Part shown: positions 20,216-24,749 of the stretch, piece after piece
Position numbering within the stretch: position 1 is the first letter of the stretch
How the letters are laid out: every line of letters begins with the position of its first letter
Assembly: GCA_002731275.1 (NCBI GenBank)
Contig: PCBK01000019.1
Location: 1-64,000, forward strand
Reading direction: 5' to 3'
Length of the DNA: 64,000 bases
From: Deltaproteobacteria bacterium
Lineage (GTDB): Bacteria; Myxococcota_C; UBA6777
The notes under the pieces: generated by a model
What the model saw: only the letters and a program-made list of their open reading frames with translations
Database searches by the model: none
What the model was told of the DNA's origin: nothing
Position numbers and translations under genes: made by a program

Positions 20216-20839
20216 ATGGAATATTCAGAGACGATTGGACACATCGGTAGCCTCTCGGACGCAAGAGACGAGAGTCTCGGACAGGAGGAAGAAGGGGCTT
20301 CACCGCAAGCGCCGACTGCACCTGTCTGCGAGCGAGAGTTTGATCTGTTCTATCGAACATACCGAAAATATGTATATGACCTCTGCCGACGTCGGTTGTC
20401 CTTTGAGGAGGACATTCGCGATCTGGAGTCCGTGGTGTGGACGGAGGTGTATCGTTTCTTTGAGCGCTTTCGGTGCGAAGATCCCCGACGTTTGCTGTAT
20501 CAATTGATCAAGTGGCGTGCGCGGGATTGTTATCGGAGGATGCAGCGAAAGAAACAAGAGGACTACGGCACTGAGCTTGAAGATGTCCAACTGATGAAGC
20601 TCATGCAAGACGCGCGTCCTCACGCACCTCGTCCCGAAGATACAATGGCATTGCAACAAGTTCTTATGGAAGAAGAGCCCATGGATCGGGAGATTCTCTT
20701 TGGGCGCTTTGTCGAAGGGTTGACGTGGGAAGAGCTGTCGGCGCGGCACGATGTACACCGAAACACCTTATTGCGACGTGCGAAAGCTTCACTCAAACGA
20801 TTGCGCACGCGACTCGAAGAAGTGTACCCACAGGAGTAA
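20216..20839 (+). CDS. ECF-type sigma-70 factor
   Basis: A 207-residue protein. After an acidic, poorly conserved N-terminal 40 residues comes a sigma region 2 (about 45-105, including YRTYRKYVYDLCRR and a LLYQLIKWRARD segment). Region 4 follows at about 155-200, with the helix-turn-helix FVEGLTWEELSARHDV and a basic recognition helix RNTLLRRAKASLKR. It lacks regions 1.1 and 3, as ECF factors do. It should direct RNA polymerase to a small regulon. The membrane-protein gene starts four bases after its stop, the classical arrangement of an ECF factor and its anti-sigma, and the caspase gene follows. Confidence 0.85.
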   Translation: MEYSETIGHIGSLSDARDESLGQEEEGASPQAPTAPVCEREFDLFYRTYRKYVYDLCRRRLSFEEDIRDLESVVWTEVYRFFERFRCEDPRRLLYQLIKWRARDCYRRMQRKKQEDYGTELEDVQLMKLMQDARPHAPRPEDTMALQQVLMEEEPMDREILFGRFVEGLTWEELSARHDVHRNTLLRRAKASLKRLRTRLEEVYPQE

Positions 20840-20843
20840 ATCA

Positions 20844-22064
20844 ATGAAGCAACGTGAGCACACAGGCCATGTCCAGGCCACAAACGGGGAAGATGCTTTG
20901 ACATCATGGCGGGTGCAGGTCCACACATTCGCCTCATATCAAAAGTCACCTGTCAATCCTTTCTTGTCCGAAAGGGAGCTTGACGTATTGGCGACGAGGG
21001 AGTTGGAGCAAGAGATGGACACACAACACAGCACAACGCTGCAACAGCGCTCGTTTTGGGACGTCTTGTTGCACGAACCATCCTCTATGGAGCCCGGACT
21101 CTACGAGCCCGGTGAGGACTCTTTTGGGGACGACGATATCGAAGCCGAGAAACGCGCGCTACTTCAACGCGGCAGCGCATTGCTCGAAGAGCTCGACCCA
21201 CTGCCAGGTGACTTTTGGACACAAGAGACATCGTGGGACGTACACGAAGAGGATGGACAACTCCCTTTTCAGGACCCCCCTTCGTCGGACGTTTTGATGT
21301 GTGAATCTTCGACGATCTCGACAGTCATTCCCGGTTGCTCTGCAAGCACAGAGCACGAGGTTCAGTCTTTGTACATGGATGAGCGGACGATCGATGAGCC
21401 TGGGTGTGAAGCGCCTGTGGCGTTTGGTGAAGGGGGCACGGACGGAATCAATTCTTGGTTGTCCACTCGATCACTGGGTCTGTTGGGGACGCTCTGTGTG
21501 GGAGCGTTGTTGTTGGGGGTGATGTTTCCAAACACACGCTCTTGGTTGATGGAGCCGCAGGAGCATACAAAGGCAGGTGTAAGCTTTACGCAGTTTGGAG
21601 CGCCGACGGCAGAGCACAAAGGTCGGCGAGGCAAGATCTCGATGCGCATCGAGTACCGTCGCAAAGGTGTGATACGCAGGATGCCTCGTGTTTTGCGTCC
21701 CAAGCGGGGCGATGAGCTGCGGTTCCTTGTGCGCAACACTTTCCCCTCTCGGTTGTATTTGGTATTGTTTCTCGTCGAAGGCAAAGGCGTCGTGAGTCTT
21801 TTGTTTCCCAACACAAAGAATCGCTTTGTGTGGCCAAAAACCAAAAAAGAGATCGCGCTTCGCAAGGGTGCCGTTCTTTCGCCTTCTTCTGGAGATGAGA
21901 GGATTTACGTTTGTGCTTCAAAACGACCGATTGGGGCGCGTTCGCTGCGGCGTTGGTTTCGCGCGCGTCTGAAGCGGACAAGTGTCCGAAAAATTCGTTC
22001 TTTTCGTCTCCGTCGTAATCCATGTGTCTACCAAAAGACGTGGTTGTTGAAGGTCAAGCCGTGA
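20844..22064 (+). CDS. Single-pass membrane protein with DUF4384-like periplasmic domain; possible anti-sigma factor
   Basis: A 406-residue protein. Residues 1-208 are acidic and polar with no signal peptide, 209-228 form one membrane helix, and 250-406 are a basic, presumably periplasmic domain. Within it, GDELRFLVRN, LYLVLFLVEGKGVVSLLFPN and VLSPSSGDERIYVC fit the DUF4384 pattern (beta-rich domain often found beside or within bacterial caspase-like proteins). I do not see a standard zinc-binding anti-sigma motif, but the topology and the four-base gap after the sigma gene fit an anti-sigma factor. CAGGAG upstream fixes ATG 20844. Confidence 0.65.
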   Translation: MKQREHTGHVQATNGEDALTSWRVQVHTFASYQKSPVNPFLSERELDVLATRELEQEMDTQHSTTLQQRSFWDVLLHEPSSMEPGLYEPGEDSFGDDDIEAEKRALLQRGSALLEELDPLPGDFWTQETSWDVHEEDGQLPFQDPPSSDVLMCESSTISTVIPGCSASTEHEVQSLYMDERTIDEPGCEAPVAFGEGGTDGINSWLSTRSLGLLGTLCVGALLLGVMFPNTRSWLMEPQEHTKAGVSFTQFGAPTAEHKGRRGKISMRIEYRRKGVIRRMPRVLRPKRGDELRFLVRNTFPSRLYLVLFLVEGKGVVSLLFPNTKNRFVWPKTKKEIALRKGAVLSPSSGDERIYVCASKRPIGARSLRRWFRARLKRTSVRKIRSFRLRRNPCVYQKTWLLKVKP

Positions 22065-22197
22065 TGTTTCACGTGGATCGTTTCAGGGACAAGAGTTTGC
22101 TTGTGGCGATCTTCTGTGCCTTTGGGTAGGCAAAGTTCTCTCTATTGTACCATTCAAAACATCCGACTTTCTCAGGTGAGTGAGTGTAGGAGAGTGT

Positions 22198-23766
22198 ATG
22201 TATATTCGAGTTGGCTGGCGTCTCTGGGGGGTTTTGTGTGTGGTGCTGCTTATGTGGAGCGTCCCCGTTGCGTCTGCGTGGGCATCTGCAAAGTACAAGT
22301 TTGCGCTGATCATCGGACACAATAAGGGGAAGGGGCTGCCGACATTGCGGTTTGCAGAGAAGGATGCCCGACGTGTCGCAGGGTTGTTGAAAGAACTTGG
22401 GGAGTTTCGCAAAGGCCACATCAAGGTCTTGTTGCGACCAACCCGTAAAACACTCAAGAAGACCCTGCTGGATTTTCAGCGCAAATTTGCCAAGCTACCC
22501 AAGGAAAAGGTGACCTTTCTCTTCTACTACTCTGGCCACTCCAAACCCACACACTTTCAACTCGGAGATGATAAGTATATGTTCTCCGATCTGATGGGCA
22601 CGATCAAAAAACTTCCTGCTGGGCTTCGTTTGATGATCGTCGACAGTTGTTACAGTGGACAATTGACATTGGCAAAAGGTAAGGAGCGTCGCGCATCTGG
22701 AAAAGGTGCGGCGGTCGTCGATATCAGTGATTGGCAACAGAGCCAAGGGCCACGTGTCGAAGGACTCGCGTTACTCGCTTCTTCTGGAGAGAATGAGCAG
22801 TCTTATGAGTCAAATCAGTTGCGCAGCTCGTTTTTTACGTCGAGCTTGTTGGCTGGTTTGCGCGGCGCCGCAGATAGTAACAACAACCAAGAGGTGACGC
22901 TCAACGAGGTCTATCAGTACACGAAGCGCCAAACCGTTGTACACTCCACAAAACACAATGTCCCTGTCCAGAGACCTGTCTTTCTTTGGGAGCTACGTGG
23001 GAAGGACTCTGTCATCTTGACGAAAGTTGCACAGGCTTCCGCACGTGTTGCGTTTGAGCGGGGTATCAAGGGGCACTGTTTTTTGTTGCAGCGCCATGAG
23101 ATTATCCACGAGTTTGCGAAGGAAGCGAATAGACGGGTTGTCGTTGGTGTGCGCAGTGGCAAGTACGAGATCCAGTTGAGACGCAAGGGGTGGGTGGCTG
23201 TCCATTACGCGACGATCAAAGCCCGACAGCGTTACCTGATCAAATCCTCCTCCGTCAAGTGGAAATTTGTTGGGACAAAGCAAGGGATTCGTGGACGTGG
23301 TTCGCGTCCATCGATGTTTGGTGTGGGGATGCTGCTCGATTACACCCCGCTAGGTTCTCTTGGTATCCATGGGATTGGTCTGACACTCGCGATGGATCTC
23401 CGCAATATCGTACGAGTGGGCTTGCGCTATCAATTTACCTTCCTGAACACGGATGAGATCCCCCACGTCATCCATGAGATGGGGTTACGTGTGGGCGTTG
23501 GTAATAAATTTCACTTTGCGAACACGGATATATGGCTTGGCGCGTTGCTCGAACCGCGCCTGACGATCCGCCAACTCAGTGGGACCAAAACGTATGCGAA
23601 TGTCGGGGTTCTTTTTGGTGGATCGGTGCAACTCAATTACTATCTTTCTCCCGATCTCTCTGTGCGTATGAGCTTTTCAGGTGGGGGGATCGCGACATTT
23701 TACTACCCCACCGCACAACTGAAACCTGCCTTTGACTTCTCTGCCGGTGTGATCCTCCATTTGTAG
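22198..23766 (+). CDS. Exported caspase-like peptidase fused to a probable outer-membrane beta-barrel
   Basis: A 522-residue protein. The signal peptide (about 1-28) is followed by a C14 caspase-like domain (about 32-265) with the catalytic His in FYYSGHS (His114) and Cys in VDSCYSG (Cys151). A linker of about 100 residues is followed by residues 372-522, which show alternating hydrophobic and polar strands, Gly/aromatic turns and a final strand ending in VILHL, as in outer-membrane barrels. AGGAG five bases upstream supports ATG 22198. It is the last gene of the sigma operon and is followed by a strong terminator. Bacterial caspase-like enzymes usually cut after Arg/Lys or Asp; the target is unknown. 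Confidence 0.8.
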   Translation: MYIRVGWRLWGVLCVVLLMWSVPVASAWASAKYKFALIIGHNKGKGLPTLRFAEKDARRVAGLLKELGEFRKGHIKVLLRPTRKTLKKTLLDFQRKFAKLPKEKVTFLFYYSGHSKPTHFQLGDDKYMFSDLMGTIKKLPAGLRLMIVDSCYSGQLTLAKGKERRASGKGAAVVDISDWQQSQGPRVEGLALLASSGENEQSYESNQLRSSFFTSSLLAGLRGAADSNNNQEVTLNEVYQYTKRQTVVHSTKHNVPVQRPVFLWELRGKDSVILTKVAQASARVAFERGIKGHCFLLQRHEIIHEFAKEANRRVVVGVRSGKYEIQLRRKGWVAVHYATIKARQRYLIKSSSVKWKFVGTKQGIRGRGSRPSMFGVGMLLDYTPLGSLGIHGIGLTLAMDLRNIVRVGLRYQFTFLNTDEIPHVIHEMGLRVGVGNKFHFANTDIWLGALLEPRLTIRQLSGTKTYANVGVLFGGSVQLNYYLSPDLSVRMSFSGGGIATFYYPTAQLKPAFDFSAGVILHL

Positions 23767-23776
23767 TGTTTGGAAT

Positions 23777-23802
23777 CGCCCTACTGTGGGCGCTGTTTTT
23801 TT
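23777..23802 (+). terminator. Rho-independent terminator of the sigma/caspase operon
   Basis: CGCCC and GGGCG pair around a six-base loop (TACTGT), followed two bases later by seven T residues. It begins ten bases after the caspase stop codon and cleanly separates this operon from the next gene. Confidence 0.85.
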
Positions 23803-23912
23803 CACGTTCTTTGGTGCAGATCGTCGACTTGTATCGATTCTTCTTACAGATTGATGTGACAGCCATCATGTGTTTGGAAAAGGTGTGACGAGCGAGACAT
23901 AGGAATGTGGAG

Positions 23913-24749
23913 ATGAGTCGAAGTTTGCCGCGTGGTCTTTTGGTTGGTTTATTGTGTGTGGGGGTGAGTGTCTTTTGGCGATGTGAGTATGGGCAGGTGG
24001 TCTCTGCGCAGGTGTCCTCCGTTGGCACTGTCAAAGCCTCTCCTCCCACATTTGTGGATCTTTTGGCGAACAGGCGATGTCGTCAGACGCTGTCGTTGTT
24101 TGCAAAGATACCACCGAGGAAGGGCTCTCGCCTGCTTCGTCAACGTATGAATATGGAGGTGGCCTCACAGCTCGCGATGTGTGGTCATTGGCATATGTTA
24201 TTCGCTTCTTTTTTACCGCTGACCCGCCAACAAGGGCGTGATATTCTCAATACATTGGAGTCCAGTGGTTTACCTGTTGAAGATGCCTTTTTTCGCTGGT
24301 TGCGACGTCGAAGGTACTGGCAGATCGCCGAACAACGACCTTCTCTCTCTTACTGGCAAGAGCACCAGCTCGATGCGATCAGTGCCAGGGAAATCCTCAG
24401 TTGGCTCGCGCAAAAAAAACAGCCTCGGCGTTTTTGTCCCCAAATGATGAAACTTTCACTTACATCGACGAGCCGCGTGAGGAGGCAGGTGCTCCGGTTT
24501 GTGGTCGAGGTGAAATGTCCTCACCTTCTGCAATTGGTACGACGTCAACTCTCACACAACAACATCGATAATCGGATACAAGCCTGTTCGCTCCTCGGGA
24601 AGCTGGGGAATGAGCACGATGTGGTCTATCTCCAGAAGATGGTTGTGCACGATCGTGCTTATGTACAAAGGGGGACCAAGCTCTCTTTTCCTGTCAAACG
24701 TGTCTGTCGCGATGCTTTTCTCGCGCTCAAAAAGCGTCTTAGGGACTGA
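23913..24749 (+). CDS. Exported protein with degenerate HEAT-like repeats
   Basis: A 278-residue protein with a signal peptide (about 1-32), then alpha-helical sequence rich in Arg and Leu. The last 100 residues contain two recognisable HEAT-like units (VRRQVLRFVVEV, IQACSLLGKLGNEHDVVYLQ). Several Cys residues are scattered and may pair in the periplasm. AGGA eight bases before ATG 23913 is the likely ribosome site; the GTG two codons earlier is less likely. It follows the terminator of the caspase operon, so it is probably transcribed separately. Function unknown. Confidence 0.6.
   Translation: MSRSLPRGLLVGLLCVGVSVFWRCEYGQVVSAQVSSVGTVKASPPTFVDLLANRRCRQTLSLFAKIPPRKGSRLLRQRMNMEVASQLAMCGHWHMLFASFLPLTRQQGRDILNTLESSGLPVEDAFFRWLRRRRYWQIAEQRPSLSYWQEHQLDAISAREILSWLAQKKQPRRFCPQMMKLSLTSTSRVRRQVLRFVVEVKCPHLLQLVRRQLSHNNIDNRIQACSLLGKLGNEHDVVYLQKMVVHDRAYVQRGTKLSFPVKRVCRDAFLALKKRLRD

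Follow-up and report, generated by a model that had tools for sequence, protein, structure and literature searches.

The three-gene cassette

We analysed a 64,000-nucleotide stretch of a Deltaproteobacteria bacterium (positions 1 to 64,000 of contig PCBK01000019.1, assembly GCA_002731275.1; hereafter the window), in which three consecutive genes encode an extracytoplasmic function (ECF) sigma factor, a single-pass membrane protein with a DUF4384 domain and a predicted exported caspase with a C-terminal barrel. All three open reading frames named in a preliminary description of this DNA are present, in that order and on the + strand. The cluster comprises the following features.

20216..20839, +, ECF-type sigma-70 factor, 207 aa (TIGR02937, 49.6 bits; cut-off 42.9)
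20844..22064, +, putative anti-sigma factor of 406 aa, by homology to its family, with one membrane pass and a predicted periplasmic DUF4384 domain
20844..21449, +, predicted cytoplasmic N-terminal half of the anti-sigma factor (residues 1-202), which has diverged and lacks zinc ligands in the window copy
21474..21524, +, transmembrane helix, residues 211-227 (hydropathy; model helix 203-227)
21618..21623, +, Lys259-Gly260, linker position ahead of DUF4384 at which the anti-sigma factor may be cut (both residues at least 90% conserved in alignment A6)
21621..22061, +, residues 260-406, predicted to form a periplasmic beta-sandwich that includes DUF4384 (matched by Pfam at 21702-21929; predicted local distance difference test score, pLDDT, about 76-95)
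22198..23766, +, caspase of 522 aa, predicted to be exported and to end in an outer-membrane barrel (GTG 22180 as a possible other start)
22294..22953, +, caspase (metacaspase-like) domain, residues 33-252 (His114 codon 22537-22539, Cys151 codon 22648-22650)
22675..22680, +, Lys160-Gly161, p20/p10 linker position at which the caspase may process itself (nearly invariant in caspase alignment A5)
22978..23241, +, middle beta domain, residues 261-348 (model pLDDT about 90-97)
23323..23760, +, predicted eight-stranded outer-membrane barrel, residues 376-521 (model; Foldseek matches NspA, E 1e-3, and OmpA)
23777..23801, +, hairpin resembling an intrinsic terminator, followed by a T run, at the cluster end (hairpin 23777-23792, 5 G-C pairs)

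The genes had been described as packed together and closed by a strong terminator. Genes 1 and 2 are indeed separated by only 4 bases, but 115-133 bp lie between gene 2 and gene 3, whose co-transcription is therefore presumed; the family median for this gap is 9 bp. A hairpin is present at the cluster end, but such sites were only slightly enriched in the region (7 versus 4.7 in shuffled sequences). No promoter common to the sigma genes of the window clade rose above chance in their upstream regions.

The identification of the first product as a sigma factor held, with TIGR02937 exceeding its cut-off. Regions 2 and 4 were matched below the Pfam cut-off, and the protein has the ECF arrangement without a region 3 domain; its paralogues at C49 and C127 share 40-46% identity with it.

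The second product has a charged N-terminal half, a sole hydrophobic segment (residues 211-227 by hydropathy) and a C-terminal half in which DUF4384 was matched at residues 287-362 (E 1.8e-5; 25.2 bits, slightly below the Pfam cut-off of 27). The protein is homologous to 108 other DUF4384 membrane proteins, the majority of which are linked to sigma genes, and HxxxCxxC precedes the membrane helix in 34 of the 109 family proteins, compared with 0.1 in shuffles. Matches to zf-HC2 were found in 6 of 21 members from the window's own genome (best E 1.7e-7) and in 9 of 43 proteins of a mixed set from elsewhere. At the level of the protein family, the HxxxCxxC domain of zinc-finger (ZAS) membrane anti-sigma factors is thus present, and by homology the gene 2 product is a putative anti-sigma factor. 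Lysine and arginine are more frequent on the N side of the family membrane helix than on the other side (3.84 versus 2.39 per 20 aa), which fits a cytoplasmic N-terminus, and the invariance of C357 and C394 in the periplasmic domain of the window clade is compatible with an oxidising compartment. Fold searches with the DUF4384 domain returned generic beta-sandwiches only (Z up to 9.1) and no functional lead. In the literature, DUF4384 figures among the accessory domains of cyanobacterial orthocaspases (PMC7475262), an independent tie between this domain and caspases.

The third product was matched by Peptidase_C14 (Pfam, E 2.3e-16), has a hydrophobic segment at its N terminus and gave an AlphaFold2 model with a mean pLDDT of 82.8. 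The best fold match of its caspase domain was Arabidopsis metacaspase 4 (VIA-align Z 23.0 over 208 residues, 2.6 A), closely followed by animal caspases and legumains. It combines the caspase fold with the His-Cys dyad of Peptidase C14, and H114, D149 and C151 are invariant across 52 aligned caspase sequences. A hydrophobic segment also precedes the caspase domain in 94 of the 97 caspases of the cassette family. With this segment and the barrel, gene 3 is predicted to encode an exported metacaspase with an outer-membrane anchor, in agreement with the periplasmic location on which the preliminary description depended. Charge bias, export signals and the barrel fit a caspase and a DUF4384 domain that share one side of the membrane. 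A few caspase paralogues in the same genome, read by eye, apparently have hydrophobic helices instead of a barrel. EF-hand matches occur in several cassette caspases, making calcium a candidate activator.

Conservation of the trio

The genome carrying the window (10.75 Mb) was searched with profiles in the regions around caspase and DUF4384 matches. It encodes 21 DUF4384 membrane proteins of the family, 18 of which are flanked by both sigma and caspase genes, and in 17 of these 18 trios all genes lie on one strand. The DUF4384 family and caspases are carried by all five genomes of the window's phylum in our collection, and the relatives G002 and G003 contributed 19 trios, occupying nearly every place among the 20 regions fetched from both.

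For a wider sample, 84,980 species genomes were scanned with the caspase family alignment, which yielded 80 loci from Myxococcota, Spirochaetes (including Treponema ruminis), Fibrobacteres, Acidobacteria and others. The window caspase as a lone query found no relatives in the scan of genome contigs, whereas the family alignment recovered them. The trio was present in the same order at 53 of the 71 loci outside the window's phylum, a proportion that is no frequency among all caspases because the loci were chosen by caspase similarity; a broader caspase search found the trio at 2 of 29 loci. Together, the 18 trios in one genome and those at distant loci exceed what chance would give. A search for the same neighbourhood in other Myxococcota had been proposed, and the trio proved to be conserved far beyond that group.

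No fourth gene conserved across lineages was identified. In the window, a HEAT-repeat-like protein is encoded just 3' of the terminator (23907-24749). Other arrangements were also observed. Two full cassettes lie in tandem at L007:6713-12896 (G000:C111). At L006:8167-9776 (G000:C127), a sigma/DUF4384 anti-sigma pair has no adjoining caspase, although the linker Lys-Gly described below is present and the periplasmic half resembles that of the window clade; this pair may use a caspase encoded elsewhere. At six further loci (L204, L213, L216, L231, L244 and L248), the caspase gene comes first, followed by the sigma gene and an anti-sigma gene that matches the family profile partially and whose product has an xKGG motif past the membrane helix. 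A trio on a contig labelled as a Klebsiella pneumoniae metagenome-assembled genome (L238, CAMAWH010000006.1) probably reflects mislabelling or misbinning.

A shared Lys-Gly motif and covariation of the partners

Motifs were counted on representatives clustered at 45% identity, comprising 80 anti-sigma factors and 68 caspases. The anti-sigma stretch between the membrane helix and DUF4384 is poorly conserved except for a Lys-Gly pair, which was found in 65 of 80 proteins compared with 23.2 in shuffles (maximum 33); the longer form Arg-x-Lys-Gly was found in 34 of 80, compared with 2.0. The same motif recurs in the caspases, where Lys-Gly lies within 45 residues past the catalytic cysteine in 66 of 68 proteins (19.4 in shuffles) and Arg-x-Lys-Gly in 32 (2.0 in shuffles). 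In the models of the window proteins, Lys259-Gly260 borders a disordered stretch (residues 238-256) and Lys160-Gly161 starts a disordered loop (residues 161-184).

In metacaspase 4, linker Lys225 sits in the active site, held by a pocket to which Asp137 belongs, and is the first site of cleavage (PMC7206013). Asp137 aligns with D149 of the window caspase, so that the S1 aspartate is conserved, and together with the motif this suggests that the cassette caspases cut after lysine. Given the shared motif and this parallel, they may cut both themselves and the anti-sigma factor after the same type of lysine. The preliminary description had the caspase cleave the Arg/Lys-rich periplasmic domain; we keep the caspase as the putative anti-sigma protease, but the likelier site is the linker Lys-Gly rather than the domain as a whole. 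A second caspase subgroup was also seen (L063, L067, L072, L075, L077 and L079), in which ATC or AVC replaces DSC at the active cysteine; it consequently has no S1 aspartate, although both proteins still carry Lys-Gly.

The motif could have a structural origin instead, Lys-Gly marking the edge of the DUF4384 fold and the loop after the active-site helix while the trio is held together for some other reason. The anti-sigma motif does directly precede the first strand of the folded DUF4384 domain. However, [RK]x[KR]G was absent within the 60 residues ahead of DUF4384 in all 30 unlinked DUF4384 proteins, and among 26 readable unlinked control caspases, inspected by eye, none had Arg-x-Lys-Gly at the caspase position and one had Lys-Gly at equal spacing. 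With both motifs also bordering disordered loops, we consider a purely structural origin highly improbable.

Covariation between the partners was assessed from distances between paralogues within one genome, which removes the species tree. Across the 18 trios of the window's genome, the periplasmic half of the anti-sigma factor covaried with the caspase (r 0.77; partial 0.75) and the cytoplasmic half with the sigma factor (r 0.42; partial 0.41), while the two halves showed hardly any relation to each other (r 0.06). The corresponding values for the 13 trios of a second genome were 0.92, 0.34 and 0.22. The correlation of sigma with the cytoplasmic half is the weaker one because distances in that half are near saturation.

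Covariation of this strength shows partnership, not its direction, and would also suit an arrangement without cleavage. In it, the DUF4384 domain would dock with or inhibit the caspase, much as TonB-dependent transducers bind FecR-type anti-sigma factors, signal-dependent unbinding would expose the anti-sigma factor to other proteases, for instance of the Prc or DegS type, and caspase catalysis would serve another substrate. There is a precedent in FoxA, whose signalling domain shields FoxR from proteolysis (PMC11637429), and the Treponema ruminis trio (L218:6622-15033) is followed by genes for a TonB plug-domain receptor, ExbB, two ExbD proteins and TonB, which can be counted in the same direction. 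Genes also recur 3' of the trio at related Treponema-type loci, and these neighbours point to a signal located at the outer membrane. Docking alone, however, predicts neither the invariant catalytic residues nor the recurrence of the caspase linker motif in the anti-sigma linker, and we regard it as unlikely.

A different possibility is that the caspase is an output of the system, with the sigma factor driving its own operon and so controlling the caspase, which would not act on sigma but serve as an effector of developmental, predatory or cell-death processes. ECF factors often autoregulate, which would suit such a role. A link to programmed death has also been suggested for Myxococcus operons (PMC3501461). 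Because this arrangement leaves unexplained both the motif shared by the two proteins and the specific covariation of the caspase with the periplasmic half of the anti-sigma factor, we consider it very unlikely, and a death effector is not favoured as the single explanation.

Proposed pathway and relation to described systems

We propose that the cassette is an envelope-signalling system whose site-1 protease is a lysine-specific metacaspase anchored in the outer membrane; by cutting the anti-sigma factor, it would start sigma release. We judge this reading probable. The conserved trio, the homology of gene 2 to anti-sigma factors, the conserved catalytic residues, the motif in both proteins and the way in which the caspase covaries with the periplasmic half are its computed support; from these we infer export, topology, self-processing, anti-sigma cleavage, sigma release and the signal. 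The ECF sigma factor would be kept inactive by the cytoplasmic N-terminal half of the single-pass anti-sigma factor, while the caspase would be exported and anchored in the outer membrane through its barrel. An envelope signal would activate the caspase, probably through cleavage of its own p20/p10 linker after lysine (K160-G161 in the window copy), and the active enzyme would cut the anti-sigma factor after the lysine of Lys-Gly in the linker between helix and DUF4384 (probably K259-G260 here). This cut would remove the periplasmic domain and leave a stub to an M50 site-2 protease, for which the genome encodes several candidates, whereupon sigma would be released. The order of steps is taken over by analogy from systems such as RseA. 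The simplest pathway to accommodate all the evidence is regulated proteolysis in which the caspase would make the site-1 cut.

Several results weigh against this proposal. Some cassette proteins have Lys-Ser or Lys-Ala at the Lys-Gly position, and the window sites, L-A-K160-G161 and E-H-K259-G260, both have no Arg at P3. The close-clade alignment A7 places the family RxKG column on residues 249-252 rather than on K259-G260, which makes the exact cut site in the window copy uncertain. A match of P3 Arg between caspase and anti-sigma linkers across all loci (p 5e-4) was absent within groups (p 0.22 and 0.63), and we dropped this covariation as evidence because it is a between-clade effect. The covarying pairs adjoin on the DNA, so that block-wise inheritance or recombination may partly explain their covariation; at two orthologous loci where the caspase gene is divergently placed, away from the part encoding the periplasmic half, the relation was kept (0.76 and 0.77), on little data. 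Finally, a profile scan of the window protein itself for zf-HC2 or HxxxCxxC gave no match, which makes this copy atypical. The anti-sigma layout first proposed therefore gains from its relatives, which carry an N-terminal zinc-finger anti-sigma domain, but not from a motif in the window copy, and because the N-terminal model is also of low confidence (helices 43-60 and 96-117), the anti-sigma role of this copy rests on homology and position.

The proposed pathway resembles the regulated intramembrane proteolysis of Sigma-E/RseA (DegS or Prc, then RseP, then ClpXP) in its ECF sigma factor, its single-pass anti-sigma factor and the expected cuts, first at a periplasmic site 1 and then at an intramembrane site 2. 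In the cassette, however, the pair is encoded with a barrel-bearing cysteine protease of the caspase fold, where the RseA system employs a PDZ serine protease, and the periplasmic domain of the anti-sigma factor is DUF4384. In Craspase, described in 2022 (PMC10028731), the caspase-like protease Csx29 cuts the cytoplasmic sigma inhibitor Csx30. There, too, a caspase-fold protease frees an ECF-like factor (CASP-sigma) by cutting its inhibitor, as the cassette caspase may do. Unlike that cytoplasmic, RNA-activated, CHAT-type system, the cassette has a predicted exported Peptidase_C14 enzyme and a membrane anti-sigma factor; none of its three proteins had a CRISPR family match in a cas scan limited to the trio. 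Cell-surface signalling similarly encodes an outer-membrane partner, a membrane anti-sigma factor and a sigma factor together, a likeness to which the TonB-system genes after the Treponema trio add. In the cassette, by contrast, the outer-membrane component carries a caspase and the anti-sigma factor is of the zinc-finger and DUF4384 type rather than FecR; Pfam searches detected neither FecR in the gene 2 product nor a plug domain in that of gene 3. Proteolytic control has also been proposed for ECF54 (PMC8999054), which has CHAT (a caspase-related domain), subtilase and carboxypeptidase neighbours, but that group has no anti-sigma factor, and proteolysis is proposed to act on the sigma factor directly. 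Arabidopsis metacaspase 4 and cyanobacterial orthocaspases share the fold, the His-Cys dyad, the linker lysine (Lys225 in metacaspase 4) and the S1-pocket Asp, whereas the cassette caspase is predicted to be exported, barrel-anchored and coupled to a sigma/anti-sigma pair.

According to Asplund-Samuelsson et al. (2012), sigma-70 factors share operons with four of the five metacaspases of Myxococcus xanthus; such operons were noted in Myxococcus, Anaeromyxobacter, Haliangium, Sorangium, Ralstonia and Fibrobacter (PMC3501461). These operons are probably of the same kind as the cassette, although that text names no anti-sigma factor, DUF4384, cut-site motif or mechanism. With incomplete coverage of the subscription literature, we found no paper joining DUF4384, an anti-sigma factor and a caspase, and none in which an exported caspase targets a membrane anti-sigma factor. 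The preliminary description knew of no system that uses a periplasmic caspase in this way; sigma-metacaspase operons as such had already been noticed. Overall, the preliminary interpretation is partly supported: the neighbourhood is conserved and the caspase is predicted to be exported, but the likelier cut site is a different one and the operons were not new.

More broadly, we lean slightly towards the view that the cassettes form a widespread and so far unrecognised class of envelope-signalling systems, in which lysine-specific, outer-membrane-anchored metacaspases are dedicated site-1 proteases for ECF anti-sigma factors, genomes run many parallel and possibly insulated channels, and many exported caspases act in signalling rather than death. 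For a large group of exported bacterial caspases, the proposal names a partner and predicts where it is cut, in a pathway that two purified proteins suffice to check, and the naturally duplicated cassettes offer material for studying how parallel signalling channels are kept separate. If the proposal is true, the extracytoplasmic proteases that set anti-sigma pathways in motion would include a caspase-fold enzyme, and caspase control of sigma factors would exist beyond CRISPR as well.

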